Under the pieces are notes generated by a model that saw only the letters and a program-made list of their open reading frames with translations, made no database searches and had not been told where the DNA came from. A stretch of 63,284 nt of DNA from Clostridia bacterium (GTDB lineage: Bacteria; Bacillota; Clostridia; Oscillospirales; CAG-272). The first letter of the stretch is position 1, and the number at the start of each line of letters is the position of its first letter. The DNA lies in contig JAFUOY010000021.1 in the NCBI GenBank assembly GCA_017481595.1, positions 1-63,284 on the forward strand, in the 5' to 3' direction. Shown piece by piece: positions 6,775-61,637 of this stretch. A program made the position numbers and the translations under genes.

Positions 6775-7650
6775 ATGGAAGGCACAGAAAAGCTTATTAA
6801 CAAGATCAGCGAGATTGAAGAACAGATCAAAAGGTTAGACGAGCAGCTTGACGGTTATTACGAGGCGCTTGAGCCCGAGGTTGAGCCACTTGCTAAACAA
6901 TCCGAGGAGAAAAACAAGGAAATAGACGAGGTTAAAAAGAAGACTGCCCCCACGTTTTTATGGGTTATATTCGGCGCTTTGGTAGTTGGCGCTATCGTAT
7001 TTAACGCCATTGACATCGGCATCCTTACAGGTATATGCTTCGTAGCGGGAATTGGCGTTTTGGCGTATGCCCTCTCTATCAATTCCAAGTTTACCAAGGA
7101 ATACAACGAAATCGTAGGTGAAATAAACAAGGAGCTTGATGAGATCGAAGAAGAAATAAACGCGATCTACGCAACGGACCCCAGAATCGAAAAGACGGAA
7201 AAAGAGATCGAGGAGCTAAAGAAGGAGCTTGAGGCAAATCAAAAGGAGCTTAAGAGATTAAACGACATTGAGGCTGACAAAAAAGCCCTTGAAAAGCTTG
7301 GTGTAAACAATCTTATCGTACGCTGCACCTACGCGGCTGTCAGATGCAAGTGCTTCCCCGTTATTGACGGAGTTGAACGCGATTATATGAGCGGTATGTA
7401 CGGTCTTTATTATCTTGATCCCGGTGACCACACTTATTACTTAAACGTTCTCGTAACTGACGAAATAATAGATACGGAAGATATACACTTTACCCTTAAT
7501 GGCAACAACAAGTACATAGATATCGAGCACGATATGCGTACTTACAAATACGAGATCAAGACCTACGACAGCTTTGACGATTTTACCGCTAATTCCTCTC
7601 CCGAAAGCAAAAAGAGAGTAAGAGACGAGATCCTTAAATTGGCAGAATAA
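6775..7650 (+). CDS. Membrane-anchored coiled-coil protein with C-terminal beta-rich domain (paralogue B)
   Basis: 291 aa, function not recognised. A first coiled coil (1-60) is followed by two adjacent hydrophobic helices (about 62-105, FLWVIFGALVVGAIVFNAID and the next stretch). A second coiled coil (about 112-175) leads to a beta-rich domain (180-270) resembling that of the preceding gene (LNGNNKYIDIEHD). The hairpin-like membrane anchor would leave both coils and the C-terminal domain in the cytoplasm. AAGGAG ribosome site; a bidirectional terminator follows. A two-gene unit of a soluble and a membrane-bound partner is suggested. Confidence 0.75.
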   Translation: MEGTEKLINKISEIEEQIKRLDEQLDGYYEALEPEVEPLAKQSEEKNKEIDEVKKKTAPTFLWVIFGALVVGAIVFNAIDIGILTGICFVAGIGVLAYALSINSKFTKEYNEIVGEINKELDEIEEEINAIYATDPRIEKTEKEIEELKKELEANQKELKRLNDIEADKKALEKLGVNNLIVRCTYAAVRCKCFPVIDGVERDYMSGMYGLYYLDPGDHTYYLNVLVTDEIIDTEDIHFTLNGNNKYIDIEHDMRTYKYEIKTYDSFDDFTANSSPESKKRVRDEILKLAE

Positions 7651-7654
7651 ATAA

Positions 7655-7686
7655 TAAAAAAGCAGAGAGACTTCTCTGCTTTTTTG
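7655..7686. terminator. Bidirectional terminator between convergent genes
   Basis: AAGCAGAGA (7660-7668) pairs with TCTCTGCTT (7673-7681). A-rich and T-rich flanks on either side allow use by both the plus-strand gene ending at 7650 and the minus-strand gene ending at 7692. Confidence 0.85.
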
Positions 7687-7691
7687 TTTAT

Positions 7692-9614
7692 TCAAAATAC
7701 CTTTTCCACCTTAAAATCGTCGGAGCCGAACATATACATATAGCCGTCGATATAGACGCCGCGCATATGGGCGGGATCTCCGTTAAGGGGTACGTTTACA
7801 AGCTCTACAAGATCGTATTTATCAAAATGGAGGAGGACGTATCTGCTTTCGCCCCCAACGATAACGCCAATGCCCACAAGCTGATTTTCGCGGTCTACGT
7901 AATAGGACTTATATTTTGTAGAATAGTGCGCCTGTTCAAGCTTGTAGGAGCATACGGAACGAACGCCGTCCTTGGTTTCCTCATACACCTCTACCTTAAA
8001 GCTGCTCCAGCTGTCCCCCTTACCGATGCCGAGGAGATATCCGTTGCCAAGGTTGATAAGAGAGGTTGAGAAGCCGTCAATAGTACCTGTGTCCTTGTAC
8101 TTGATATTATCAAGGTCGGACAGGTCAAAGAAGAACACAGGGTCGGACATTTCGATGGACGTGCAGGCGTAAGCCATTTCCTTATCAAATCTTACGGACT
8201 GAATTTCCTCGTGGGGAGGCGCAAAATCAATAACGGAGGCTACTATCTCAAAGCTCGTAAGGTCTATACAATACAGGCTTGCGTTTGATCTGCCCGTTGC
8301 GGTTTGTAAAATATCCACAGAAACGCTACCGTTTTCATAGGTTTCCACACGGATGGTGGTTGCGTTGGTGGTTGTGAATACGCGAAGAATACCCTCGTAC
8401 TCATCCATACTCCACTGATCCTTGATATAGCCTCTTACAGTAACGCTTCCCTTTTCTTCAAAGGTGTCGCCGCCGTAGGAAAGACAGGAGATGGTAGTCA
8501 TGGAGTTTCTTGTAAAGGTGCCGTCCTCGTTTTCCTTTTTATCCGCAAAAACGTGGGTTAAGAACACGTGATTTTCGGAAACGTACACATCCTCCGAATA
8601 AGAGAGGTACGCCGCCGTGCCCTTTAGCTCAAGGGTGCTTTCATCAAGCTTCATAACAACTGTATAGCGGGTGCTGTTAAGATTATCGGGGGATACGATT
8701 CCCTCTGCGGGGATACTGTGCATACCCGATCCCTCGTCTATCTGAGGAACGTAGGTGGCTTCATTATCAAAATCAAGAGATTTTTCATTGATAACAAACT
8801 CTGTCAAAAGAAGAATACTTCCCTTTGTATTACGGGAGGACATATAAGCGCCCGTTACGTTGAATTCATTCTTTTTTACAATATTGGCAGGGTCGCTTAC
8901 GTCAAGGGAGATCAGATTAACGTAGCGGTCTGATATTTTATCGTTTTTAACGTAGCACTGAGAAACCACCGTTACGGTCTTACAGTCGCTTGAAAGATAG
9001 AATTCCCACTGATCGAGAAAATAGCTCTTTGTTCCCTCGTAAAGAGTGTAGCTACCCACCTCTTTTGTGTTTTCCTTGTCAATGGAGTAGATACGAAGCA
9101 CCTCGTTATCAAGGTAGTAAATATGGGTGTCGCTTCGTTTGATGCGGTCGGCTTCTATGATGCCCTCCACCTGATTGTCGGTTATTTCCTCATAGCCGCC
9201 CTCTCCGTCTATTCCATTGTCTAAGGGTCCCTCCATTGTGGGCCAATCTGCCGGCGCTTGTGTGGGAATATCATCAAATGCGCCTCCGAATCCGTTGATG
9301 GTCACACCCTTAAGCTCCGACCATAGCATTGCCGCGTTGTTTTTGTACTTTGGCTTTTCATAGGTGAGGTCGTTTAATTTTTGGATAAGTCCGTAATATT
9401 CGCTATCCGCATATCCCGATACGTCGGGGGGAGTGGTGTTAAACGGAATAAAGAGCCACATATTACAGAAAATAAACGCAAAGCAGGCGCAAGCCGCCAC
9501 TATGGAAATAAACCTTCTTTTCCTTTTGGGCTTGATTATATTATCGGGATGCGCCTCGGCTATATATTTATCATCAGCAAGGCTAAGATCCCGATACCAA
9601 TTCTTTTTCCTCAT
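7692..9614 (-). CDS. Membrane-anchored beta-propeller protein, candidate anti-sigma partner
   Basis: 640 aa. A short cytoplasmic tail (1-34, with DDKYIAEAHPD) is followed by one transmembrane helix (35-56, ISIVAACACFAFIFCNMWLF) and a large extracellular part with repeated beta-strand blades (about 150-640), typical of the C-terminal propeller family of secreted beta-propeller proteins. The start overlaps the stop of the upstream ECF sigma gene by 4 bp, so the two are translationally coupled. In Clostridia, proteins encoded right after an ECF sigma factor with a short N-terminal ..I.EA.P tail plus one membrane helix usually act as anti-sigma factors. I infer that the propeller senses an external signal and the tail holds the sigma factor. 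No protease site is visible. Confidence 0.8.
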   Translation of the reverse strand: MRKKNWYRDLSLADDKYIAEAHPDNIIKPKRKRRFISIVAACACFAFIFCNMWLFIPFNTTPPDVSGYADSEYYGLIQKLNDLTYEKPKYKNNAAMLWSELKGVTINGFGGAFDDIPTQAPADWPTMEGPLDNGIDGEGGYEEITDNQVEGIIEADRIKRSDTHIYYLDNEVLRIYSIDKENTKEVGSYTLYEGTKSYFLDQWEFYLSSDCKTVTVVSQCYVKNDKISDRYVNLISLDVSDPANIVKKNEFNVTGAYMSSRNTKGSILLLTEFVINEKSLDFDNEATYVPQIDEGSGMHSIPAEGIVSPDNLNSTRYTVVMKLDESTLELKGTAAYLSYSEDVYVSENHVFLTHVFADKKENEDGTFTRNSMTTISCLSYGGDTFEEKGSVTVRGYIKDQWSMDEYEGILRVFTTTNATTIRVETYENGSVSVDILQTATGRSNASLYCIDLTSFEIVASVIDFAPPHEEIQSVRFDKEMAYACTSIEMSDPVFFFDLSDLDNIKYKDTGTIDGFSTSLINLGNGYLLGIGKGDSWSSFKVEVYEETKDGVRSVCSYKLEQAHYSTKYKSYYVDRENQLVGIGVIVGGESRYVLLHFDKYDLVELVNVPLNGDPAHMRGVYIDGYMYMFGSDDFKVEKVF

Positions 9615-48797: not shown

Positions 48798-50552
48798 ATG
48801 AAAAAGCTTTTGTCATTGATTTTATGCTTGTGCTTACTTGCCACTCAGTTTACATTTCTTACGTTTGCACAGGACAGCGGCGATCCCATCGACACTACCA
48901 ATCACACCAACATAGCTCTCGAGGCTATACCAAGTGTATTCAGTAACTATTACGATTACAGTAAGGCATCTTACCTTAATGACAATATAATAGACGGTCA
49001 GATCAATTCCTATATGTTCTGGCGTCCCCAAACCTCCGACAGAGATCCATCCGTTGCAGGAACCGACCCCTGGTTTAGATATAAATTCAAGGAATATAAG
49101 GAAATATCCAAAATAACCGTCCTTGTTGAGATTCCTTACTCTACCGAAACTGTGGTAAAGTTCGAGGCTCTTATACAGGGTGAATGGATACTCCTCGGTA
49201 TTGAGAAATATTCAGAAAGCCCTCAATACAAGGAATACGAAAAGGTACACGAGGTTTCCCTTGAGCTTCCCTACGGAGTTACAACAAAGGAGATACGCGT
49301 ATCCGTTTCCGGCTATATCGTATGGGATCCTCCCATGATATCCGAGTGCATCGTAATGGGCGCAGACGGTAAGGCACCCGAATTTGATGTGCCCGAGGGA
49401 GCGTATATGACAACTAACGCCGTGCTCAGCGGTACTGCCTCTGCTTCCTCATCAAAAGCAAGACAATATCCTGCCCTTGCCAATGACGACAATTTCTATA
49501 CAAAATGGGCATCCAACGATACAACCAACAATCAGTGGTACCAGGTTGACTTTGATAAGGAATATACCATTGGTGAGGTAGGTATGAACCTCTCCGCCAT
49601 CAAATTAGTTTTGGATACGAACGAAAATCCCGTAAACGAGGTATACAAGTACACAGTAAAGATAGAGATAAATGTAAACGGCAAGTGGGAAACCGCATAT
49701 GAGGGTGAGGTATCCACCTCCGAGGGATCGGATGCAGTTTACAAAAAGGCGCTTGACTCTGCCAAAAAGGTAAGCGCAATTAAGGTGACCTATCTGAATA
49801 CAAACGGAATATCGGCTATGCTTTCCGAATTGTATGCGACTATATCCGACGGTACAAAGTGTATGTGTCCAGGTTCATCAGTAACTCCGGATCAAAAGCT
49901 TTCCGCTGCGTCAGGTAACGTTGCTTGCCTCGGTACTCCTTACGCAAGCTCCGTATTTACCTTCTCCAATATGTCCGACGTAAAATACATTACTGACGGA
50001 AGAACAGGTAATGATGATTATATCTGGGTTCCCGAAACCCCCGCTTGTCCCTCCTACTGCGGTGTTGTCCTCGACAAAGCAAGAACGGTAGATAACGTTG
50101 TTCTTTACTTCAACGACGCATTCGGTATTGATGCCGACGGTAAAAACCACGTTTCCACCTTTGACGTTCAGTATAAGAATTCAAAGGGTGAATACGTAAC
50201 CGTCACCTCCGCATCATCCTATGACAGCAAATACGGAAAGGCGATAATTTCCCTCTCCTTTGACGCAGTTACTACTGACGATATCCGCGTTGTATTCAAG
50301 ACAAACGGCGGTACATTCCCCTACCTTAAGGAGCTTGAGGTATACTCTCATTCCGAAAACAATGAAATAATTCTTCCATATACTCAGTTTGTGGGATTTC
50401 CTGCATCAAAGCGAATACCCGCTGCCACCAAGGAATTCAAAAATTATACCGTTGCCAAGCGTCCCGAAAGATTAAACGTTCTTAAGAAAGTTCCTATGAA
50501 TTCCGCCCCCGTAACAGATCCTAAGGCCTCCGGCTGGACAGGATGGAAATAA
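48798..50552 (+). CDS. Secreted protein with discoidin-like (F5/8 type C) domains
   Basis: 584 aa. Signal peptide 1-24 (KKLLSLILCLCLLA...FTFLTFA) followed by Ala-Gln. Three beta-rich segments (about 35-190, 205-350, 375-520) have the galactose-binding-like pattern; the second and third show ASSSKARQYPALANDDNFYT, then KWAS, and KYITDGRTGND...YCGVVLDKARTVDNVVLYF. These usually bind carbohydrates. No catalytic domain and no cell-wall anchor (no LPxTG), so it is released or held by sugar binding. AAGGAG ribosome site; 20 bp after ribF with no promoter seen, so possibly partly co-transcribed. Confidence 0.8.
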   Translation: MKKLLSLILCLCLLATQFTFLTFAQDSGDPIDTTNHTNIALEAIPSVFSNYYDYSKASYLNDNIIDGQINSYMFWRPQTSDRDPSVAGTDPWFRYKFKEYKEISKITVLVEIPYSTETVVKFEALIQGEWILLGIEKYSESPQYKEYEKVHEVSLELPYGVTTKEIRVSVSGYIVWDPPMISECIVMGADGKAPEFDVPEGAYMTTNAVLSGTASASSSKARQYPALANDDNFYTKWASNDTTNNQWYQVDFDKEYTIGEVGMNLSAIKLVLDTNENPVNEVYKYTVKIEINVNGKWETAYEGEVSTSEGSDAVYKKALDSAKKVSAIKVTYLNTNGISAMLSELYATISDGTKCMCPGSSVTPDQKLSAASGNVACLGTPYASSVFTFSNMSDVKYITDGRTGNDDYIWVPETPACPSYCGVVLDKARTVDNVVLYFNDAFGIDADGKNHVSTFDVQYKNSKGEYVTVTSASSYDSKYGKAIISLSFDAVTTDDIRVVFKTNGGTFPYLKELEVYSHSENNEIILPYTQFVGFPASKRIPAATKEFKNYTVAKRPERLNVLKKVPMNSAPVTDPKASGWTGWK

Positions 50553-50624: not shown

Positions 50625-51350
50625 TTACTCAAATCTTTCGGTAATGACCTCAGCCTCAATATTGGTCTTACCGTCGGAGCGAACCGTTCTGAAATAGTAT
50701 TTACCGTCTATTTTTGACATATATATCTTAATAGTTTCGTCCTTTTTGGCTTCGCCCGAGTAGTTGATGCCTATGCTCTTTACACGGAGATTTTCCATAT
50801 CGGGAATATAGTTGCATATCATATCCGCGTAGTTGGTGTTGTTCATATGACCGTTTAAGTCGGTGTCCGAATATCTTACGGTATACTCTCCCACAAGAGA
50901 CATAGGAAGGGCGGTTGGTATTCTGATACGCAAGGGATGCTCTGTCTTTATGGGCTCATCCATATAATAATTGCTTGTATCTATATCGTCAACCTTAATA
51001 AGCTTTCTATCGTTTAAGGAAACGAGAGCCCAGGAGGACACCGCCTCACAAACGATCTCACCGTCTCTTTCCATTTCATAGGAACGGATAAAGCTTACTC
51101 CCTTACTGGGACAAGCCCAGCTTCTTGCAATTATTTCATCATAGGCAAGGACGGGATAGTACATTTCCACTCTGATACCGCTTAAAACAAATGCCTTACC
51201 CTGCTTGAAAAGATCGGTATACGAGGGCCTTTGCTCATTTAGCTGACGCATAGCCGCTTCCTGAATATATTTAAAGGTCTGGCTTGCGCCAAGGATCTCA
51301 TTTACATCCGTATCGTGAAATCTTACCTTGAATTTTTCTTCCCACTTCAT
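50625..51350 (-). CDS. Acyl-ACP thioesterase
   Basis: 241 aa, a double hot-dog protein of the bacterial FatA/FatB-like acyl-ACP thioesterase family. Releases free fatty acids from acyl-ACP in the cytoplasm. N-terminal half: FKVRFHDTDVNEILGASQTFKYIQEAA. C-terminal half: YTVRYSDTDLNGHMNNTNYADM, the conserved segment with the catalytic Asn-containing NGHMNN. Ribosome site is a weak GGGGG. Single gene with its own promoter. Confidence 0.9.
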   Translation of the reverse strand: MKWEEKFKVRFHDTDVNEILGASQTFKYIQEAAMRQLNEQRPSYTDLFKQGKAFVLSGIRVEMYYPVLAYDEIIARSWACPSKGVSFIRSYEMERDGEIVCEAVSSWALVSLNDRKLIKVDDIDTSNYYMDEPIKTEHPLRIRIPTALPMSLVGEYTVRYSDTDLNGHMNNTNYADMICNYIPDMENLRVKSIGINYSGEAKKDETIKIYMSKIDGKYYFRTVRSDGKTNIEAEVITERFE

Positions 51351-51452: not shown

Positions 51453-51860
51453 TCATATAATGTTGGGAATTGACGATTCAGAATACTGATGTACGTTATC
51501 GGCTGTGGGAGTGGCGATACCGAGGCCGAAGCTGACGGTTATGGCGTTATTTACGTTCAGCATTGTATTATCGTCAAGATGCCCCATTTTTTCCTTTAAT
51601 CTTGCCTTATCAATAGTTCTTATCTGCTCCAAAAGTATTACGGAGTCCTTGGCAAGACCTACGCTGTCCGCCGAAACGTCTATGTGGGTGGGCAGCTTTG
51701 CCTTTGTCATTTTACTTGTTATTGCGGCGGCAATAACCGTTGGACTGTATTTATTTCCAACGTCGTTCTGGACTATAAGTACGGGACGGAGTCCTCCCTG
51801 CTCGGAGCCTATGACGGGACTCAGATCCGCATAATACACATCTCCTCTTTTTATGTTCAT
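51453..51860 (-). CDS. MazF/NdoA-type endoribonuclease
   Basis: 135 aa. PemK/MazF family RNA-cleaving toxin. [30 protein letters not shown] and Arg25 plus Thr48 (AAITSKMT) match the catalytic residues of Bacillus NdoA. The start at 51860 follows GGAGGAAAAA. The 20 C-terminal residues ([15 protein letters not shown]) extend past the usual end. No antitoxin gene lies in the 310 bp upstream or downstream, so it appears solitary; the antitoxin might be elsewhere. Confidence 0.93.
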
Positions 51861-51957
51861 TTTTTCCTCCTGCACGCTTTTACTGTATAGCTATTATTGA
51901 CATTTTTTCGTGATTTAAACTTCTTTACTTATATTTTATGTTTTGTAAGAAAAAAGT

Positions 51958-52171: not shown

Positions 52172-53176
52172 CTATGCCATTTTGGCAAGCTTTTCAGGAG
52201 TGATCTCGTAGGGGGTGGGTCTGCCGTTTAAGTAATTTTCAAACTCGTCAATAACAAGCTCTGCCATTCTTCTAACCTCCCAACCCTGGCTACCTGCAAT
52301 ATGTGGGGAGAGGAATACGTTTTCAAGGGTGAAGAGCTTACTGCCCTCTGCGGGGGGCTCGCTGATGGTAACGTCAAGAAGGGCGCAGATGTCCTTTCTT
52401 TCCTCAAGCACCTCGATCATACCGTCCTCATCAACCTGAGCGCCTCTGCCCGTGTTGATAAAGGTAGCGTAGGGCATCATTGATGCAAAATGCTCCTTTT
52501 TAAGAATGCCAACGGTTGCGGGTACGTTTGCAAGATGGTTGGAAACTATATGACAGGTTGAAAAGATCTCCTCAAGGCTGCACTTTTTAACGCCCAATGC
52601 TTCAGCCTGCTCCTCCGTCATAAACACGTCGTAAACGAGGATATTAAGCTTATAGGGCTTAAGAAGCTCAATAACCTTGCGGCCTATCATTCCCGCGCCT
52701 ATAATACCAATATTTGCGCCGTAGTTGCCAACGCGCGCGTGGGAAATCTCGCCTGCGGTCTTATAATCCCCTGATTTTGCAAGGACTGAGGACTGGAAAT
52801 ATCCCTTGTTTGCAAGAAGGATCTGTCCAACGGTAAATTCCGCAACGGGAATAGCATTTGCCGCGTAGGCGCTGAAAATTTTCACGTTCTTTTCAAAATA
52901 TTCGTTAGCGAAGTATCTTACGCTGCCTGCGGCGTAGAATACCGCCTTAAGGTTGGGTAAATAGTCAACAAGCTTTATTTCACCGCCGCCCGGCATTGAC
53001 CAGGTTGAGAATATGTACTCAACGTCCTTGAAGGGTGCGGGGTCTGCAAGTATCTCGCTTTCCGTATATACCTTATCCTTTTCGATATCGCAAAGAGAAG
53101 CAACTCTGTTTATATTTTCCTCGGCATAGACATAGTCTATATTGCCCTTATAGTTAGCCAAAAAAATCGCTTTCAT
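52172..53176 (-). CDS. D-isomer-specific 2-hydroxyacid dehydrogenase family protein
   Basis: 334 aa. NAD(P)-dependent oxidoreductase fold: Rossmann motif GIIGAGMIGRKVIELL (near residue 155), FINTGRGAQVDED with the catalytic Arg region, and SPHIAGSQGW with the catalytic His. Substrate is not deducible; relatives act on 2-keto acids, phosphonates or sugar acids. Divergent from the OYE/lyase operon that starts 208 bp away, so it may take part in the same catabolism. Its terminator coincides with a dispersed repeat. Confidence 0.88.
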   Translation of the reverse strand: MKAIFLANYKGNIDYVYAEENINRVASLCDIEKDKVYTESEILADPAPFKDVEYIFSTWSMPGGGEIKLVDYLPNLKAVFYAAGSVRYFANEYFEKNVKIFSAYAANAIPVAEFTVGQILLANKGYFQSSVLAKSGDYKTAGEISHARVGNYGANIGIIGAGMIGRKVIELLKPYKLNILVYDVFMTEEQAEALGVKKCSLEEIFSTCHIVSNHLANVPATVGILKKEHFASMMPYATFINTGRGAQVDEDGMIEVLEERKDICALLDVTISEPPAEGSKLFTLENVFLSPHIAGSQGWEVRRMAELVIDEFENYLNGRPTPYEITPEKLAKMA

Positions 53177-53318
53177 AATTATTCTCCTTAAAAATAACCT
53201 TACTCTTTTATTTTCTCACAAAAAAGAAAATATGTCAAGTGCTACGGTGAAAAAACTTATCCTTGTGGGAGAAATAATTCTTTGCCGTCTTTTTAAATAA
53301 GTTACAACGCGAAAAAAC

Positions 53319-53347
53319 TTGACAAAGAATTTATAATATGATATCAT
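53319..53347 (+). promoter_or_regulatory. Promoter of the OYE/lyase operon
   Basis: TTGACA (53319-53324), 17-bp spacer, TATCAT (53342-53347). No obvious cre site or long dyad was noticed in the 208-bp divergent region. Confidence 0.7.
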
Positions 53348-53384: not shown

Positions 53385-54710
53385 ATGGCATACCAGGTTC
53401 CGCAGAATAAAGAAGCTTTTTTAAAGCTGTGCGCAGAATCCAATACTAAGTTCCCTTACTCCGAGGATATTTCCTGCCTTGGCAAGAAAATTATAGTTGG
53501 AACAAAAACAATACACAACAGAATAGTATATCAGGCTATGGAGGGTTGTGACGGTACGCTCGAGGGAGCTCCCGATGAGCTTACGAGAAGAAGATATCTC
53601 CGCTTTGCAAAGGGTGGCGCGGGTATTATATGGTTTGAGGCTACTGCAGTTAAGCCCGAGGGAAGAGCCAACCCCAGACAGATGTATCTTACAAACGAGA
53701 CAAGAGGCGAGTTTGAGCGTATTCTTAACGATATAAAGGAGACCTGCATAAGGGAAAACGGCTTTGAGCCCACGGTTATTATGCAGCTTACCCATTCGGG
53801 CAGATATTCCAAGCCCGAGGGCGTTCCCGCTCCCCTTATCGCTTACAACAATCCTATTTTTGAAAAGGATAATCCCATTGACAAGTCAAGAATAGTAACT
53901 GACGAATACCTTGATTCCGTTGGTGAGGCTCTCGTTAAATCCGCCATTATGGCAAAGAGCTGCGGCTTTGACGGCGCAGACATCAAGAGCTGTCACAGAT
54001 ACCTTTTGAGCGAGATACTTTCCGCTTATGAAAGGGACGGAAGATATGGCGGCAGCTACGAAAACCGTACGCGCCTTCTTACAAACGCGGTAGGCGAGGC
54101 AAAGAACGCTACAGGAAGAAGCTTTATTATTACGTCCCGTCTTAACGTATACGACGGATTTGAATATCCCTACGGCTTCTCCGTTAAGCCCGGTGACGGC
54201 ATCAATCCCGACTTTACAGAGGCAAAACGCCTTTGCAAGGACCTTGTTGCCAAGGGTATTGATATGATAGATATGACTATGGGTAACCCATATTTCAACC
54301 CCCACGTAAACCGTCCCTTTGCAAAGGGAACATACGAGCCTCCGGAGCATCCTATGTTCGGCGTACAACGTATGCTTGACGGTATTTCCGAAATTGCGGC
54401 TGAGATCAAGGGCACACCCGTCGTTTCCTCGGGTATTTCATTCCTTGGCGGCGTTTCCGCAAACGTATGCGCAGGATATATCAACGAGGGCAAGTTTGAC
54501 TTTGCAGGCTACGGCAGAGAGACCCTTGCGTACCCCGACTGCGCAAAGGATATTTATACAGGCGCAAATCTTGATCCCAAGAAGCTCTGTATCTGCTGCG
54601 GCAAATGTACTGAAATTATGAGATGTAAGGGCGGTACTCCCGGTTGCGTAGTACGTGACTCCGAGGTTTATATGCCACTTTATAAAAAATTTGTATTAGG
54701 TAAGGAGTAA
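53385..54710 (+). CDS. NADH:flavin oxidoreductase (old yellow enzyme family)
   Basis: 441 aa. FMN-dependent TIM-barrel reductase of activated C=C bonds. It shows NRIVYQAMEGCDG (flavin site), GAGIIWFEATAVKPEGRANP, IMQLTHSGRYSKPEG (His of the active site), and SCGFDGADIKSCHRYLLSEI with the RYGGSYENRTRL segment typical of OYE. At the C-terminus CICCGKCTEIMRCKGGTPGC adds a cysteine cluster like that of OYEs fused to the [4Fe-4S] domain of dienoyl-CoA reductases, but here no further domain follows. ATG 53385 has TGGAGG 6-8 bp upstream. First gene of the operon. Confidence 0.9.
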   Translation: MAYQVPQNKEAFLKLCAESNTKFPYSEDISCLGKKIIVGTKTIHNRIVYQAMEGCDGTLEGAPDELTRRRYLRFAKGGAGIIWFEATAVKPEGRANPRQMYLTNETRGEFERILNDIKETCIRENGFEPTVIMQLTHSGRYSKPEGVPAPLIAYNNPIFEKDNPIDKSRIVTDEYLDSVGEALVKSAIMAKSCGFDGADIKSCHRYLLSEILSAYERDGRYGGSYENRTRLLTNAVGEAKNATGRSFIITSRLNVYDGFEYPYGFSVKPGDGINPDFTEAKRLCKDLVAKGIDMIDMTMGNPYFNPHVNRPFAKGTYEPPEHPMFGVQRMLDGISEIAAEIKGTPVVSSGISFLGGVSANVCAGYINEGKFDFAGYGRETLAYPDCAKDIYTGANLDPKKLCICCGKCTEIMRCKGGTPGCVVRDSEVYMPLYKKFVLGKE

Positions 54711-54714
54711 TAAA

Positions 54715-55467
54715 ATGAAGGTTGCTTTGATTACAGGCGCGGCAGGCGGCATCGGATACGCTACCGTTGAAAAATTTGCAAAAGAGGGCTACGCCATCGT
54801 AGCTATGGATATTGTCCCCGAGGAAAAGGTTGCAGACAAGTTTGCTTCCTTTGAAAACGCTATTTACGTTAGCGGTAACCTTGCAAAGAGCGAGGACAGA
54901 GAAAACGCAGTTAAGGCTGCTATAAATAAGTACGGTGTTATCAACATTCTCGTAAACGTAGCGGGCGTTGCACCGAGAGTACGTGCTGACCTTCTTGAAA
55001 TGAGTGAGGAAAGCTACGATTTCGTTATGGATATTAACTTAAGAGGCACATTCTTCCTTACACAGCTCGTTGCTAACCAGATGGTACGTCAGGCAGTTTG
55101 CGAGGGCATTAAGGGATATATTGCAAACGTATCCTCCTGCTCTGCCTACACGTCCTCCGTTAACCGCGGTGAATACTGTATGTCCAAGGCAGGTATGTCT
55201 ATGATGACCAAGCTCTTTGCCGACAGACTTGCAAAGGACGGCATCCTCGTAAACGAGATCTGCCCCGGTATTATTGAAACAGGTATGACGGAAAAGGTAA
55301 AGGAAAAGTACGACAACCTTATTGCAGGGGGTCTTGTTCCCCTTAACCGTTGGGGCACACCCGAGGACTGTGCAAACGCGCTTTACGCCCTTTGCTCAGG
55401 CATACTCGGATATACCACAGGTCAGTCCATTGACGTTGACGGCGGTATGCATATTCAGAGACTTTGA
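54715..55467 (+). CDS. Short-chain dehydrogenase/reductase (FabG-like)
   Basis: 250 aa. Classical SDR: TGAAGGIG (TGxxxGxG, residues 7-14), NVAGVAP, catalytic Ser...YCMSK (YxxxK), PGIIETGMT, and VDGGM at the end. NAD(P)-dependent alcohol/ketone interconversion in the cytoplasm. Four bp after the OYE gene, using AAGGAG inside its 3' end. The context (lyases, isomerase) suggests a sugar- or uronate-derived substrate rather than fatty-acid synthesis. Confidence 0.9.
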   Translation: MKVALITGAAGGIGYATVEKFAKEGYAIVAMDIVPEEKVADKFASFENAIYVSGNLAKSEDRENAVKAAINKYGVINILVNVAGVAPRVRADLLEMSEESYDFVMDINLRGTFFLTQLVANQMVRQAVCEGIKGYIANVSSCSAYTSSVNRGEYCMSKAGMSMMTKLFADRLAKDGILVNEICPGIIETGMTEKVKEKYDNLIAGGLVPLNRWGTPEDCANALYALCSGILGYTTGQSIDVDGGMHIQRL

Positions 55468-55499
55468 TTTCATCCCACTTTAATTTTAAGGAGAGCTAT

Positions 55500-57446
55500 A
55501 TGACTGAAACCATTGTTAAAATAAACGGCGTGTCGGTTAAAAGGGTAACTCTCAATACAGCAATAATAGGAAGCGGAGCGGCAGGTTACAATGCCGCTTT
55601 GCGTCTTACAGATTACGGTGTTGAGGATATTGCGGTTATTACCGAGGGCATCAATATGGGTACCTCCCGTAATACAGGCTCCGACAAGCAGACCTACTAT
55701 AAAATGAACCTTTGCGCAGATTATCCCGACTCACCCAAGGCTATGGCGCAGGACTTTTTCAACGGTAAGTGCGTTGACGGTGATAACGCATATGTTGAAG
55801 CGTCATTGTCCGTCCCCTGCTTCCTCCACCTTTGTGAGCTTGGCGTTGAGTTCCCCGTTAACCGCCTTGGCGAATACGTAGGCTACAAGACCGACCACGA
55901 TCCCCGCGCAAGAGCGACAAGCGTTGGTCCTCTTACCTCCAAGATGATGACAGAATGCCTTGAAAAAGAGGTTATGAAGCGCAATATCAAGATATACGAC
56001 AAGCTTCAGGCTATTGAATTTATTAAAAATGAGGGCGAGTGCGTTGGCGTGCTTTGTCTTAACAAGGCGGCAATGAACGAGGACGAAAGATTCGTGCTTT
56101 TCAACGCGGAAAACACCATTACCGCAACGGGCGGCCCTGCGGGAATTTACGCGGATACGGTTTACCCCCTCGGCCACGCAGGCGCTTCGGGTATTGCATT
56201 TGAAGCGGGCGTGCTTGGTAAGAACCTTACGGAGTGGCAGTACGGTCTTGCCTCCACCGCTCCCCGTTGGAACGTATCGGGCACTTATATGCAGGTGCTT
56301 CCCCGCTTCGTTTCCGTTGATAAGGACGGCAATGAATACGAATTTTTGAACGAATATTTTGACGATATAGGTACTTGCCTTTCCAAGATATTCAGAAAGG
56401 GCTACGAGTGGCCCTTCGACTGTAAGAAGGTTATGAGCGGATCCTCAATTATCGACCTTTTGGTATTCCGTGAGTGCGTTTTGCGTGACAGAAAAGTTTA
56501 CCTTGACTTCAGAAAGAACCCCTACGGACTCGAGGAGCTTCCCTACGATAAGCTCGATAATGAGGCAAGGGAGTATCTTGAAAACGCCCACGCCTGCTTT
56601 GGCAACCCCTTACAGCGTCTTCAGTTTATGAATATGCCCGCATATGATCTTTACCTTAACAAGGGAGTTGACCTTGAAAAGGAAATGCTTGAGATCGCCC
56701 TCTGCGCTCAGCATAATAACGGCGGTCTTGACGTTGATATGTGGTGGCAGACCAATATCAAGCACCTTTTCGCGTGCGGTGAGGTTGCAGGCTCCCACGG
56801 TATCTACCGTCCCGGTGGAAGCGCCCTTAACGCAGGTCAGGTCGGCTCTATGAGATGCGCGCAGTACATCAGCGCCCACAGATCAAATCCTCTTTGCGAG
56901 GGCTTTGACGCTCCTGCCGAAAAGGCAGTTATTAAGCACATTGAGCTTACAAGAGCTATAATTTCCGACACGGATAACCTTACGGAAATGTCCTACAAGG
57001 CGACAAAGAAGATGAGCGAGGCGGGGGGTGCAATCAGAAACGCATCCTTGCTTGACGGCGCAATTTCCTCCGCTAAGGAAATGCTTGACTCCTTTGCCTC
57101 AAGCGTTAAGATAGGCAACTCATTCAAGCTCTGGCAGGCATACAGACTCCGTGACGCTCTTATTTCACAGATAACCTATATGACTGCAATGAAGGAATAC
57201 GTAAAGGCAGGCGGTAAGTCCCGCGGATCTGCAATTTACACCTCCGAAAGCGGTAACGTACCCGCTAATATGGAGGAGACCTTCCGCTTTGAGCTTGACA
57301 CAGGAGATTTTGATACTACCGTGCTTGAGATCAACTTTGCAGAGGGATGTAAGGCGACCACACGTCAGGTAAGACCCTTGCCCGAGGGTGGCGGATTCTT
57401 TGAAAACGTATGGCGTGAGTACAGAGAGAATAAGAATATTTATTGA
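55500..57446 (+). CDS. FAD-binding fumarate-reductase/succinate-dehydrogenase-like flavoprotein
   Basis: 648 aa. FAD site IGSGAAGYNAALRLTDYG (GxGxxG, near residue 22) and NTGSDKQTYYKM near 60; the later CGEVAGSHGIYRPGGSALNAGQVGS segment closes the FAD pocket. The C-terminal third is mainly helical, ending FAEGCKATTRQVRPLPEGGGFFENVW. No cytochrome, Fe-S or signal sequence is seen, so it is a soluble single-subunit flavoprotein. Related proteins reduce C=C bonds of unsaturated acids or oxidise the reverse. Start chosen at 55500 (AAGGAGAG upstream) rather than at an earlier in-frame start overlapping the SDR gene. Confidence 0.85.
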   Translation: MTETIVKINGVSVKRVTLNTAIIGSGAAGYNAALRLTDYGVEDIAVITEGINMGTSRNTGSDKQTYYKMNLCADYPDSPKAMAQDFFNGKCVDGDNAYVEASLSVPCFLHLCELGVEFPVNRLGEYVGYKTDHDPRARATSVGPLTSKMMTECLEKEVMKRNIKIYDKLQAIEFIKNEGECVGVLCLNKAAMNEDERFVLFNAENTITATGGPAGIYADTVYPLGHAGASGIAFEAGVLGKNLTEWQYGLASTAPRWNVSGTYMQVLPRFVSVDKDGNEYEFLNEYFDDIGTCLSKIFRKGYEWPFDCKKVMSGSSIIDLLVFRECVLRDRKVYLDFRKNPYGLEELPYDKLDNEAREYLENAHACFGNPLQRLQFMNMPAYDLYLNKGVDLEKEMLEIALCAQHNNGGLDVDMWWQTNIKHLFACGEVAGSHGIYRPGGSALNAGQVGSMRCAQYISAHRSNPLCEGFDAPAEKAVIKHIELTRAIISDTDNLTEMSYKATKKMSEAGGAIRNASLLDGAISSAKEMLDSFASSVKIGNSFKLWQAYRLRDALISQITYMTAMKEYVKAGGKSRGSAIYTSESGNVPANMEETFRFELDTGDFDTTVLEINFAEGCKATTRQVRPLPEGGGFFENVWREYRENKNIY

Positions 57447-57464
57447 TTTTCAGGAGAAAAAGCT

Positions 57465-58229
57465 ATGAAGACCGGATTGGTATCTGTAACCTTTCGTAAG
57501 CTTACCATACAGGAAATAATTGAGCTTGCAAGGGAAAATTCATTAAAATCCATCGAATGGGGATCAACTCCCCACATAGACGCGGGCGAGGTAAAGCTTG
57601 CCCGTAAGGTAAGAAGTCTTATGCACGGCGCAGGTCTTAAGTGCGAATCCTACGGCTCCTATTACGGCATTATTTACAGAAAAGGCGTACACAAGCCCTA
57701 CCCCTTTAAAAAGGTGTGTAAAACAGCCGTTGCCCTGGGCGCAAAGACCGTTCGCATCTGGCCCGGCTTCCCAGGTATGCAGCCTTACTCAGAGGATGAT
57801 ATCAGAAGAGCCGTTATCCACACCCGTGAAATATGCAATATTGCAAAAAAATACGGCTTGACCCTTTCTATGGAATGCCATTTCTGGACTCTTACGGAAA
57901 ACTATAAGAAATCCATTGAATTTATAAAGAGAGTCGGCTGCGACAATCTTAAGATGTACTGGCAGCCCAATCCCTACGAGTCAAAGGAATACAACCTTGA
58001 GGCGGCAAAGGCGCTTCTTCCCTACGTTACAAACGTACACGTTTGCCATTGGATAAAGCAGGATAAAAAGCCCTTATCCGAGGGAATTGAAGATTGGCGC
58101 GAGTATTTTGACGTGCTTAAGACAGAGGATGACAGAGTATTTATGCTTGAGTTTATGCACGACGGCGAGCCCGAATCCTTGCCCGAGACTGCAAAGACCT
58201 TGAGAGAGATAATGGGTATTGAAAAATGA
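57465..58229 (+). CDS. Xylose-isomerase-like TIM-barrel (sugar phosphate isomerase/epimerase)
   Basis: 254 aa. AP-endonuclease-2/xylose-isomerase-like barrel: LKSIEWGSTPHIDAGE, GAKTVRIWPGFPGMQPYS, LTLSMECHFWTL (metal Glu), LKMYWQPNPYES, NVHVCHWI and VFMLEFMHDGEP (last metal Glu). Members isomerise or epimerise keto-sugars, or cut C-glycosides after oxidation. Overlaps the next gene by 4 bp (ATGA), so it is coupled to the lyase. Confidence 0.85.
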   Translation: MKTGLVSVTFRKLTIQEIIELARENSLKSIEWGSTPHIDAGEVKLARKVRSLMHGAGLKCESYGSYYGIIYRKGVHKPYPFKKVCKTAVALGAKTVRIWPGFPGMQPYSEDDIRRAVIHTREICNIAKKYGLTLSMECHFWTLTENYKKSIEFIKRVGCDNLKMYWQPNPYESKEYNLEAAKALLPYVTNVHVCHWIKQDKKPLSEGIEDWREYFDVLKTEDDRVFMLEFMHDGEPESLPETAKTLREIMGIEK

Positions 58230-59920
58230 GTATTTTAAATAAATCTTATAATAAAAACATATGGCAGGAATACCGCGCAAATCCCGATTTTAAGGAGACC
58301 CTTGAATATCTTGACAAGTGCTACAACGATTTCTGCATTGGTGAAATTCCCGCAACAAAATTCAGCCACTTCCGTCTTTTTAAGGACATAGGTGACAGAA
58401 CAACGTATCAAAAGACGTTTTTCATCCGTCAGCACAGGCTCTTTACCTGTATATTCCTCTCCCTTATTTATCCCGAGAGGGAGGATTACCTCACGCTTCT
58501 TCAGGACACTATCTTTGAGATGTGTGATCAGTACGTATGGGCTCTCCCCGCTCATATAGAAAACATAGACGTAAATAACAATACGGAGCTTGACCTTGAC
58601 GCAACAACAATGTCAATGGCGCTTGCAGTAGCGAAGCATTTGCTCGGCGACAGATTCCATCCCCTCATCAACGCAAGAATCGATGCGGAGATCGACAGAC
58701 GTCTCGTTAAGCCGCTTCTTGCCCAGAGATGGCATTGGGAATACAGAGCCAACAACTGGACTACTGTTTGCGCGGGAGCATCGGGCTGCGCCCTTATGCT
58801 CAACCGCCCCGACGTATTCGAGCTTGTTAAGGACAGACTTAACAGAGGTATGGCGGAATATTTAAAGGGCTACAAGGATGACGGCGTATGCGTAGAGGGC
58901 GCGGGATACTGGAGCTACGGCTTTGGCTATTATCTTGAGTATGCGGATATGCTTTACGATTATACAAAGGGACAGGAGGATCTTCTCCACTCTGAAAAGC
59001 TGTACAATATCGCATCCTTCCTACAGAAGCTTTTCCTTGATGATAACGTAGTTGCAAACTACGGCGATATGGGCTTAAATCTCTCCATTCCTATGGGATT
59101 TATGTATAAGCTCAAGAGCATCTACGGTGACGTGGTTGAAATGCCTCCCAAGGGTATCCTTATCCACGACGTCCATTATTTCCCCTTTATGATGGATGAA
59201 TTTTTGTACTATAATAAGAGCTTCGTTAGCACAAAGCTTTCCAAAAACGCAACCTATTATATGGCTGACGAGGGCTGGTTTGTAAACAGAACTCCCGCTT
59301 ACGGATTTGGCGCAAGGGGCGGATGGAACGGAGACAGCCACAACCACAACGACGTTGGATCATTTATCTTCTCCAAGGATAACAGACAGGTGCTTTGTGA
59401 TATCGGTCTTCGTCCCTATACAAGACAGTATTTTGAGCATCCCGTAAGATACACCTTCTTAGAGGCGTCATCAAGAGGTCACAACGTGCCCATTATCAAC
59501 GGTGAGTATCAGAAGAATATCCCCGGTGAACGCTCTGTAACCACTTATGAAAACGGCGTTTTCACCATTGATTTTGCAAACATCTACGGCATTGACGCCC
59601 TTAAAAAGCTTGTGCGAAGATGCAAAATGAATGAGTCCTCCGTTGAGATAACCGACGAGTTTATTCTTGAGGGCGAGGGCACCTTTACCGAAAGACTTAT
59701 TGCCCTTGAAAAGCCCGAAATTCTTGATGGCAAAATAACGGTTGACGGTGTTACAATAAGCTTTGATAAAGAAAAGGCTACCGCAGATTATATTATGGAC
59801 ACCCACACCATTGAGCTTGACGTAAACGGCAACACCTCAAAGGGCTGCGACGTTTACTGCATCAATATAAACGTAAAGGATATTAAGGACGGCACATTCA
59901 CATTTACTGTGGAGGCATAA
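58226..59920 (+). CDS. Heparinase II/III-family polysaccharide lyase-like protein
   Basis: 564 aa. N-terminal alpha/alpha toroid (about 1-320) with NNWTTVCAGASGCALML and VCVEGAGYWSYGFGYYLEY (catalytic Asn/Tyr region). C-terminal anti-parallel beta domain (330-564) with ARGGWNGDSHNHNDVGSFIF (metal/active-site His), EASSRGHNVPIINGEYQ. Such enzymes cut uronic-acid bonds by beta-elimination, giving unsaturated sugars. No signal peptide, so it would act inside on imported oligosaccharides. Start overlaps the TIM-barrel stop. Confidence 0.88.
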   Translation: MSILNKSYNKNIWQEYRANPDFKETLEYLDKCYNDFCIGEIPATKFSHFRLFKDIGDRTTYQKTFFIRQHRLFTCIFLSLIYPEREDYLTLLQDTIFEMCDQYVWALPAHIENIDVNNNTELDLDATTMSMALAVAKHLLGDRFHPLINARIDAEIDRRLVKPLLAQRWHWEYRANNWTTVCAGASGCALMLNRPDVFELVKDRLNRGMAEYLKGYKDDGVCVEGAGYWSYGFGYYLEYADMLYDYTKGQEDLLHSEKLYNIASFLQKLFLDDNVVANYGDMGLNLSIPMGFMYKLKSIYGDVVEMPPKGILIHDVHYFPFMMDEFLYYNKSFVSTKLSKNATYYMADEGWFVNRTPAYGFGARGGWNGDSHNHNDVGSFIFSKDNRQVLCDIGLRPYTRQYFEHPVRYTFLEASSRGHNVPIINGEYQKNIPGERSVTTYENGVFTIDFANIYGIDALKKLVRRCKMNESSVEITDEFILEGEGTFTERLIALEKPEILDGKITVDGVTISFDKEKATADYIMDTHTIELDVNGNTSKGCDVYCININVKDIKDGTFTFTVEA

Positions 59921-59921
59921 A

Positions 59922-61594
59922 ATGTTTGAAAAAATCAAAGACCCTGTGTTTATAAAAGAGGTTCGGGAGGGCGAGAAATACGCCCTCCTTCGTAAAAAAT
60001 ATAAGGAGCATTGTGAAAAACCATAAAGGACGAGCCCCTTATGTGCAAATTTTCCAAATTCCGTCTTTTTGCGGAAAAGGGAGAAAGAAATCTCTATGAA
60101 TACGCCTTTAATCAGCACGTTGATGCTCTTACTCTTCACGCCTTTAACACCATTGTATACGGTGACGAGCATCTTTCCAAGCTTGAGGATGCCCTTTATG
60201 ACGTTCTCTCCATATACGTTTGGGCGCTCCCCGCTCACGTTCCCGACATAAATGAGGAAAATTATTACGAGCTTGATCTTGCATCAACGGCGCTTGGAGC
60301 TACGATTGCAACCATTGACTGTCTTTTGGGAGATAAGCTGCACCCACAGTTAAGAAAACGTATAGATACAGAGTTAAGAAGAAGAATACTCGAGCCATTT
60401 AAACGTGAGATATGGCATTGGGAGGACAGATATAACAACTGGACATCCGTATGCGCGGGAAGCACGGCAGTTTGCCTTATGCTTAAATATCCCGATGAGT
60501 TTGACGCGCTGTTGCCGAGATTTTCCGAAAATATGCGTAAATTTATAGCGGGCTTTTCTGATGACGGAGTATGTTACGAGGGTGCGGGATATTGGGGCTA
60601 CGGCCTTTCCGCCTTTGTTATGTACGCCCTGCTTCTTAAGGAATATACCAAGGGACAAACAGATTATTTCAAGGATGAAAAGGTAAAAAATATATGCTGC
60701 TTCTTTGAAAAGGTTACTCTGTATCCCGATATTATAACCTGCTACGGCGATACGGGTGTTGATATCAAGGTAAACGATTTCCTTATGCATTCTCTCAAAA
60801 AGGAATATCCGAATGATATATGGATACCAAATGAAAGTCGTATACATATTCCCACAAATCAGTTTGCCCAGATACTTCTCTACATTGAGAATTATGATCC
60901 CGACGTAACGGCAGACCAGCTTAAGAATGCGGAATACTATATGGAGCACGCAGGCTGGTATACCAAGCGTACGCCATCCTATTCTCTTGCTGCAAGAGGA
61001 GGATGGAATGGGGATAGCCACAATCACAACGACGTAGGCTCATTTATATTTGCAGTTGACAACCGTCAGGTGCTTATTGATATGGGTACAAGATATTATA
61101 CTAAAGATTACTTTCTGTTGCCTCAAAGATACGAATATCTTGAAACCTCATCAAGAGGTCATAACTGTCCTATCATAAACGGTCAGTATCAGGCAAACGT
61201 ACCCGAAACGCGCTCCTACACCTCATTTTGCGACGGTGTATTCTCCGTTGACTTCCGCGAGCTTTATAATATTCCAAAGTTAAAAAAGCTTGTCCGCCGC
61301 TTCAAAGCAACAAACACAAGCGTAAAGGTTACGGAGGAATTCGAAATTACGGGAGAGTGGAGCTTTACCGAGCGATTTGTTTCCTACAAAAAGCCGAAAA
61401 TCTCCGACGGTGTTATTGAAATTGACGGCGTATACGTTAAATTTGATCCCTCAAAGGGAAAAGCCACCTATACCACGGATATGCACTACACCAAAAACCT
61501 TGATGATACTGTAAATGAAACTCTTGTGTATCTTACGGATATTAAAGTGCTGTCCTACGGAGAGTTTGAGTTTATAATTGATACAAATAAATAA
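59922..61594 (+). pseudogene. Second heparinase II/III-like protein, frameshifted near its N-terminus
   Basis: ATG at 59922 with GGAGG upstream opens a 34-codon frame (MFEKIKDPVFIKEVREGEKY...) ending in TAA at 60026. The frame open from 60017 to 61594 continues TIKDEPLMCKFSKFRLFAEK, the equivalent of TKFSHFRLF in the preceding paralogue. One extra A in the A5 run at 60016-60020 would join both into ~557 aa with the same number of N-terminal residues as the paralogue. The rest is intact: NNWTSVCAGS, YEGAGYWGYG, GDSHNHNDVGSF, SSRGHNCPIINGQYQ. Translation from the internal ATG 60041 (517 aa) would lose about 40 residues and has a weak ribosome site. A true mutation or a consensus error are both possible. 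Confidence 0.75.
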
Positions 61595-61596
61595 AA

Positions 61597-61637
61597 AAAA
61601 GCAAGAATGAAGTATTTTCATTCTTGCTTTTGTTTTT
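61597..61637. terminator. Bidirectional terminator between lyase operon and tpiA
   Basis: AAAAGCAAGAATGAA (61597-61611) pairs with TTCATTCTTGCTTTT (61617-61631), followed by GTTTTT and, on the other strand, by T-rich sequence. Confidence 0.9.

Follow-up and report, generated by a model that had tools for sequence, protein, structure and literature searches.

Why should two predicted polysaccharide lyases be encoded in one operon with an old yellow enzyme (OYE), a short-chain dehydrogenase (SDR) and a soluble flavin adenine dinucleotide (FAD) protein resembling fumarate reductase? The question is raised by positions 53385–61594 of the window, a 63,284-nucleotide contig (JAFUOY010000021.1) from a Clostridia bacterium of the Oscillospirales group CAG-272. 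There these five genes and a sixth, for a TIM barrel, lie on the forward strand as one unit with gaps of 4, 32, 18, −4 and 1 nt, as an initial annotation of the sequence (tight spacing of 1–32 bp or a 4-bp overlap) had described. The answer we favor, at a probability of about 0.45, is that the operon belongs to a widespread uronate module in which the trio of OYE, SDR and FAD protein would convert a modified or unsaturated hexuronate to 2-keto-3-deoxygluconate (KDG). The wider statement, that this is a uronate or sugar-acid module feeding KDG, which takes in the general sugar-acid salvage discussed below, is probable, and genomic context supports a connection with uronate lyases and KDG; we read the two flavoproteins as the module's central, unexplained step. 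The module is real and conserved and, as far as our searches reach, undescribed: literature searches, judged from their listings, returned no paper on this gene set, in agreement with the annotation's remark that no such system was known.

Conservation of the gene order in relatives was a check that the initial annotation had suggested. The FAD protein was identified (E 1e-30) in 75 of 194 genomes, comprising all 29 of the genus (the source genome included) and 46 of 165 others. Loci were collected from FAD-positive genomes (60) and from named contigs (80 kept of at least 559 confirmed relatives); named loci with an FAD-protein identity of at least 74% were counted as genus and the repeats L117 and L146 were dropped, leaving 108 non-genus loci, of which some are truncated at contig ends. 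All 19 genus loci retrieved by genome handle, which represent 19 of the genus's 28 further genomes, keep the order OYE-SDR-FAD, as do 70 of the 108 non-genus loci, and we therefore reject chance neighbors as an explanation. Within 7 kb of the FAD gene the non-genus loci encode an SDR in 91 cases, an OYE in 78, a D-2-hydroxyacid dehydrogenase (HADH) in 30 and the TIM barrel in 25. The trio and the TIM barrel are present in 19/19 genus loci, and the HADH (within the same 7 kb) and a lyase in 18/19 each, the exceptions being short contigs (L082 without HADH, L077 without lyase). The whole trio also occurs in the cultured Faecalispora jeddahensis, a Tepidanaerobacter and Halanaerobium congolense, and many of the 80 kept relatives derive, by their titles, from deer, sheep, goat, cattle, horse and rabbit samples. 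The part of one FAD homolog (L168, 9001–10890) that matched is interrupted by a stop codon. A phage origin was rejected, as a search of the phage collection (E 1e-20) returned nothing.

The two lyases are encoded at 58226–59920 (lyase 1) and 59922–61594 (lyase 2, main open frame 60041–61594). The initial annotation had called them heparinase II/III-like, and both are predicted to be PL33-like. The Pfam family Hepar_II_III_C matched lyase 1 at 7.7e-5 (22.8 bits, just below the cut-off of 24) and lyase 2 at 6.6e-7. The best PDB matches of lyase 1 are the chains of the PL33 paper (2.5e-31 to 1.9e-29), with 8r73 (E 2.5e-31) covering residues 52–560; next are 8khw (1.2e-15), 8khv (3.6e-13) and a chain named PL35 (7.8e-10). 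Counted along the 8r6z alignment, PL33 residues R103, H154, N238, Y291, H444 and Y470 correspond to R58, H110, N177, Y228, H372 and Y398 of lyase 1, and lyase 2 carries the same six motifs, so that the checked active-site set is intact in both. In the PL33 study (PMC11848413; PDB 8R6Z, 8R70–8R75), N238, Y291 and H444 are catalytic and R103, H154 and Y470 lie near the +1 site. Lyase 1 also keeps W239 and, like PL33_2, carries Val where W242 would stand. Lyase 2 is 45% identical to lyase 1 over residues 44–561 of the latter and has a frame switch near its start, between the first codons (ATG at 59922) and the rest; relatives hold copies of this gene without the frame break.

Unlike the PL33 enzymes, the window lyases have no secretion sign and are apparently co-transcribed with redox enzymes, their lyase activity being a prediction from sequence. 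The annotation's claim that the operon proteins lack signal peptides agrees with a simple hydropathy scan, used in place of a signal-peptide program, in which the first 45 residues of the six proteins (lyase 2 from its main open frame only) scored 0.40–1.68 vs. 3.09 for a secreted-looking neighbor at 48798. The source genome contains six such lyase genes or gene parts. At one of these (L004; 215–1282 and 1492–3162) a lyase paralog adjoins a glucuronoyl esterase on the opposite strand (PF22244, 1e-22).

Lyase and FAD genes track each other across genomes. Lyase homologs (E 1e-20) were found in 57 of 194 genomes and, outside the genus, in 25/46 genomes with the FAD protein vs. 3/119 without it (p 5e-14). 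The corresponding numbers within the same family (handles G029–G118, with the family of G116–G118 assumed) were 22/38 and 3/52 (p 4e-8) and, for strong homologs (E 1e-60), 6/46 and 1/119 (p 0.002), all by Fisher tests uncorrected for phylogeny. Of the 108 non-genus loci, 12 have a lyase matching the window profile no more than 8 kb from the FAD gene, 11 of them on the same strand; three of the 12 matches are weak and to a related heparinase-like group. In L139 a lyase of another family, PL8 (Pfam), ends 2 nt before the OYE, the order on that strand being KDPG aldolase and KDG kinase (both by profile), a 289-residue open reading frame without Pfam match, the PL8 lyase, OYE, SDR and FAD protein.

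Neighbors of this kind support the KDG link. On the strand of the FAD gene and no more than 8 kb away, a KDG kinase or KDPG aldolase was identified in L055, L118, L125, L139, L149 (kinase only) and L157 (kinase), by profiles whose seeds came from four of these positive loci, and on the opposite strand in L123 and L157; two further, weak kinase matches (L049, L070) lie on the opposite strand. Pfam confirmed PfkB behind the FAD gene in L055 and L149 and KDPG aldolase behind it in L118. The L118 aldolase (6791–7756) has ~120 additional C-terminal residues resembling a free small protein of other trio loci, those of the type A operons described below, and one such free protein (L114, 3148–3513) has no Pfam match.

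The initial annotation had noted that the usual unsaturated-uronate genes were missing. This stands for KduI, which matched in 0/29 genus genomes (against 6 of 14 controls, five over the cut-off), and for GH88, with 0/29 genus genomes over the cut-off and 4/29 with weak part matches, in searches that did not extend to DhuI-type isomerases or non-GH88 hydrolases. It does not stand, once the genomes are considered as a whole, for KDPG aldolase: this and the uronate isomerase UxaC are each encoded in 29/29 genus genomes, UxuA (mannonate dehydratase) over its cut-off in 25/29 and Mannitol_dh_C in 26/29, and we rejected an absent KDG pathway on these counts. Most aldolase matches in the genus (26/31) lie in open frames of 321–335 residues.

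The trio itself is unusual in its details. The OYE (53385–54710; Pfam Oxidored_FMN 1.8e-21, its sole Pfam family) has 441 residues and ends after a C-terminal four-cysteine motif. Its K201 and H204 are kept in 106/106 aligned sequences (some from the same genome fetched twice) and cysteines 402, 405, 408 and 421, spaced CxxCxxCx12C, in 104–105. The usual OYE active site contains a His pair, and K201 occupies the position of the first His in all 106; the cysteine spacing of Fe-S OYE reductases is CxxCxxxCx11C. The window OYE resembles 2,4-dienoyl-CoA reductase, BaiCD and bilirubin reductase in its domain and four C-terminal cysteines, and differs from them in its length, in the lysine and in lacking their C-terminal FAD/NAD(P)H domain, as a Pfam scan found no second flavin or NAD(P) domain. 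The SDR (54715–55467; adh_short_C2 3.1e-52) is of the NF009386 (PRK12745) type (292.3 bits, cut-off 250) and scores 144.5 bits against the KduD model, far under the cut-off of 338.85.

The FAD protein (55500–57446; FAD_binding_2 2.8e-24), whose start ATG at 55500 is preceded by AAGGAG, is strongly conserved among 41 aligned sequences. Like soluble fumarate reductase and L-aspartate oxidase, it combines FAD_binding_2 with a putative substrate-site Arg motif, R437 aligning with the Arg of the FrdA motif GANRLGSNSL; the third catalytic Arg lies beyond the alignment. Unlike those enzymes, it gave no Pfam match beyond FAD and Pyr_redox_2 that would indicate a partner domain of the Fe-S, heme or NAD(P) kind, and its listed scores are far under the curated cut-offs. 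That the FAD protein has no identified partner domain while the OYE carries a four-cysteine motif suggests that the OYE may feed electrons to the FAD protein. The xylose-isomerase-like TIM barrel (57465–58229; AP_endonuc_2 1.2e-19) may be an isomerase, epimerase or dehydratase; its only PDB relative at an E threshold of 0.001 is AsbF (4.8e-6), a dehydroshikimate dehydratase. In L064 (6169–8199) the TIM barrel and OYE are fused in a single protein of 676 residues.

On the favored explanation, the trio in the source genus would be transcribed together with PL33-like lyases that show no secretion sign, and these would act on imported oligosaccharides, removing the substituent at C4 of glucuronate by elimination and thereby creating a C4=C5 bond in conjugation with the carboxylate at C6. 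The FAD protein, with its fumarate-reducing fold, would then reduce this bond, and the OYE would either relay NAD(P)H electrons to it through flavin mononucleotide (FMN) and the four-cysteine cluster or reduce an enone made by the SDR. The SDR and TIM barrel would handle the carbonyl end, and the resulting 2-hydroxy-3-deoxy acid would be oxidized to KDG by the HADH, which is encoded divergently at 52172–53176 on the reverse strand (Pfam 2-Hacid_dh_C 2.8e-40), 208 nt from the operon. In the second operon type, described below, a Zn-alcohol dehydrogenase (Zn-ADH) would perform this oxidation; HADH (30) and Zn-ADH (13) are never encoded in the same one of the 108 non-genus loci, which suggests that they are alternatives for one reaction. 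KDG would then be taken by KDG kinase and KDPG aldolase. It is doubtful that these exact steps are all correct: the operon with its conserved residues, its neighbors and the co-occurrence across genomes were observed, and the chemistry is inferred throughout.

The initial annotation had proposed that elimination products are reduced rather than hydrated, possibly with the sugar as electron acceptor. This idea fits the findings but is unproven. The annotation's reading is partly supported, by the single unit, the conserved order, lyases with an intact active-site set, lyase–FAD co-occurrence and the PL8 lyase before the OYE in L139; against the reductive idea stand the many trio loci without a lyase and the rarity of KduI with or without the trio. 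A bolder form of it, in which flavin enzymes break down the 4,5-unsaturated uronides made by lyases reductively and so take over from KduI and unsaturated glucuronyl hydrolase, with the FAD protein reducing C4=C5, the OYE as its electron partner and the hydroxyacid dehydrogenase regaining KDG, we consider unlikely.

Several observations weigh against a hexuronate route through the trio. A single SDR can convert the free unsaturated sugar to KDG, which leaves the flavoproteins without obvious need. In FrdA a His and an Arg hold the substrate carboxylate, and that His aligns with Q404 of the FAD protein, not H405, so that its counterpart is ambiguous. As 96 of the 108 non-genus loci, including some truncated ones, have no profile lyase within 8 kb, the trio is not lyase-specific, and a lyase-only system was rejected; in 11/108 an IlvD/Edd sugar-acid dehydratase on the same strand stands in place of the lyase, and in a distant relative in Escherichia coli a CoA transferase does so. 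The FAD genes of three Halanaerobium loci (L145, L152, L163) have no OYE or SDR nearby; that of L152 stands beside GH28. Just 2 of 46 non-genus genomes (G058, G189) encode a KDPG aldolase no more than 8 kb from the FAD gene, and the proteins used to seed the profiles for kinase, aldolase, dehydratase and Zn-ADH came from the loci under study; the Fisher tests, as stated, take no account of phylogeny. Outside the genus KduI is similarly rare with the FAD protein (6/46) and without it (18/119), so that its absence tells little, and GH88, for which the non-genus scan covered the 46 genomes that have the FAD protein, exceeds its cut-off in 12 of them. Its distribution among these (7/25 with a lyase, six of the seven barely over the cut-off, vs. 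5/21 others), together with the KduI counts, does not support the notion that trio or lyase excludes either protein outside the genus, and their absence within it is weak evidence.

One competing explanation, which we regard as improbable, is an ordinary lyase route, in which an undetected hydrolase or an exolytic lyase frees the unsaturated sugar, this converts spontaneously to 4-deoxy-L-threo-5-hexosulose uronate (DHU), and the SDR, with or without the TIM barrel, produces KDG, leaving the OYE and FAD protein for detoxification, phenolic acids or the like. In known DHU clusters (PMC12838403) the SDRs KduD and DhuD perform the DHU step and DhuI, an unrelated isomerase, substitutes for KduI. 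The window operon shares with those clusters an SDR, an isomerase-like protein, lyase products and an end in KDG kinase and KDPG aldolase, and the kinase and aldolase neighbors are consistent with this route. It differs from them in the genus lacking KduI and GH88 over the cut-off and in having two flavoproteins and a hydroxyacid dehydrogenase; neither "flavin" nor "old yellow" is mentioned in the main text of PMC12838403. The score of the SDR far under the KduD cut-off argues against the ordinary route, as does the absence of GH88 over the cut-off from the 29 genus genomes, where other hydrolase families and DhuI were outside the search, and the OYE is near the FAD gene (≤7 kb) almost as often as the SDR (78 vs. 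91 of 108), even where there is no lyase.

A second competitor, again with little likelihood in our view, is general sugar-acid salvage, in which the trio, an epimerase and a dehydrogenase would reshape an unusual aldonate or uronate imported as a monomer, the genus lyases merely supplying that monomer. In its favor is the second operon type (type A), marked by the IlvD/Edd dehydratase (11/108 non-genus loci) and Zn-ADH (13/108) and, in several cases, by LacI and an epimerase-like TIM barrel. Neighbors elsewhere, from Pfam scans of 122 of 206 listed proteins (same strand, ≥270 residues, ≤5.5 kb, non-genus) and single picks, with the 25 commonest families per alignment scan, include GH28, GH43, GH78, GH141, Gfo/Idh, sugar transporters and parts of TRAP, Tct and branched-chain-type ABC transporters, and the TRAP, Tct and branched-chain-type parts are also as expected for salvage. 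So is a Rhizobium plasmid on which an FAD homolog (36%) occurs with Gfo/Idh, a sugar kinase and an aldolase. Salvage leaves unexplained why PL33-like lyases track the FAD gene and why two flavoproteins of the C=C-reducing type would be needed.

The distant homologs bear on a third proposal, in which a polyphenol or a cyclic acid from plants (quinate, shikimate) is what the trio reduces and the lyases are co-transcribed by chance. In E. coli (L177; NZ_CP135245, 4940–13863) an accessory locus between ytfB and rplI, near ula, encodes an FAD homolog (35%) with an SDR (36% against that of the window), a TIM barrel, an enoyl-CoA hydratase, a CoA transferase and TRAP components. Among 5426 complete E. 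coli genomes 3103 carry this distant FAD relative, and literature searches and passages of PMC12928451 gave no description of the locus. No OYE is annotated near the homologs in L177 or Rhizobium, where the annotation is incomplete, and R57, N58, Y66–K68, R256 and R269 of the window FAD protein differ in both; the fold thus probably serves more than one substrate, to judge from these sequences, which keeps the cyclic-acid proposal viable. Of 64 scanned neighbors two match the shikimate dehydrogenase domain (a strict regular expression had found no shikimate dehydrogenase and a looser one was then used), the clearest candidate, in an Oscillibacter metagenome-assembled genome (L131, 146–1054), lying upstream of an FAD homolog. 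In the equol pathway of gut bacteria, daidzein reductase, DHDR and THDR belong to the OYE, SDR and FAD_binding_2 families, the same three as in the window; that pathway has an aromatic substrate, a full-length OYE and no lyases or KDG genes, and the window operon carries lyases. With AsbF and the E. coli gene set as its other support, and with KDG kinase, KDPG aldolase, lyases, GH28, GH43 and GH78 among the neighbors, an E. coli TIM barrel without blastp match to that of the window and the changed FAD-protein residues against it, this proposal is very unlikely.

The ends of the operon are marked by sites that are merely suggestive, because the regional totals (21 promoter-like sites and 13 hairpins) are close to shuffled means (15.9 and 10.3). 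A promoter-like site, by consensus match only, precedes the operon at 53319–53347 (forward strand; TTGACA-17-TATCAT, 11/12, with TG before the second hexamer), and another faces the HADH at 53210–53238 (reverse strand; TTGACA-17-GAAAAT, 10/12, likewise by consensus only). A terminator-like hairpin of 16 pairs followed by a T-run lies at 61597–61631 on the forward strand. Beyond the HADH the window encodes a MazF/PemK-like protein, judged by eye (51453–51875), an acyl-ACP thioesterase family protein (50625–51350) and the secreted-looking protein with F5/8 type C domains (48798–50552).

If the favored explanation of the module is correct, the bacterial routes for lyase products, which comprise hydrolase, isomerase and reductase, would gain a flavin-based one, in a family whose FAD-protein relatives are confirmed in at least 559 genome stretches. 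On the bolder reductive reading considered unlikely above, the lyases of herbivore-gut bacteria might even split methanol off 4-O-methylglucuronate, with hexenuronate as the product, an idea based on the lyase paralog beside a glucuronoyl esterase in the source genome, and the double bond would also act as an internal electron sink. The finding could also lead to the function of the distant FAD relative carried by so many E. coli genomes.

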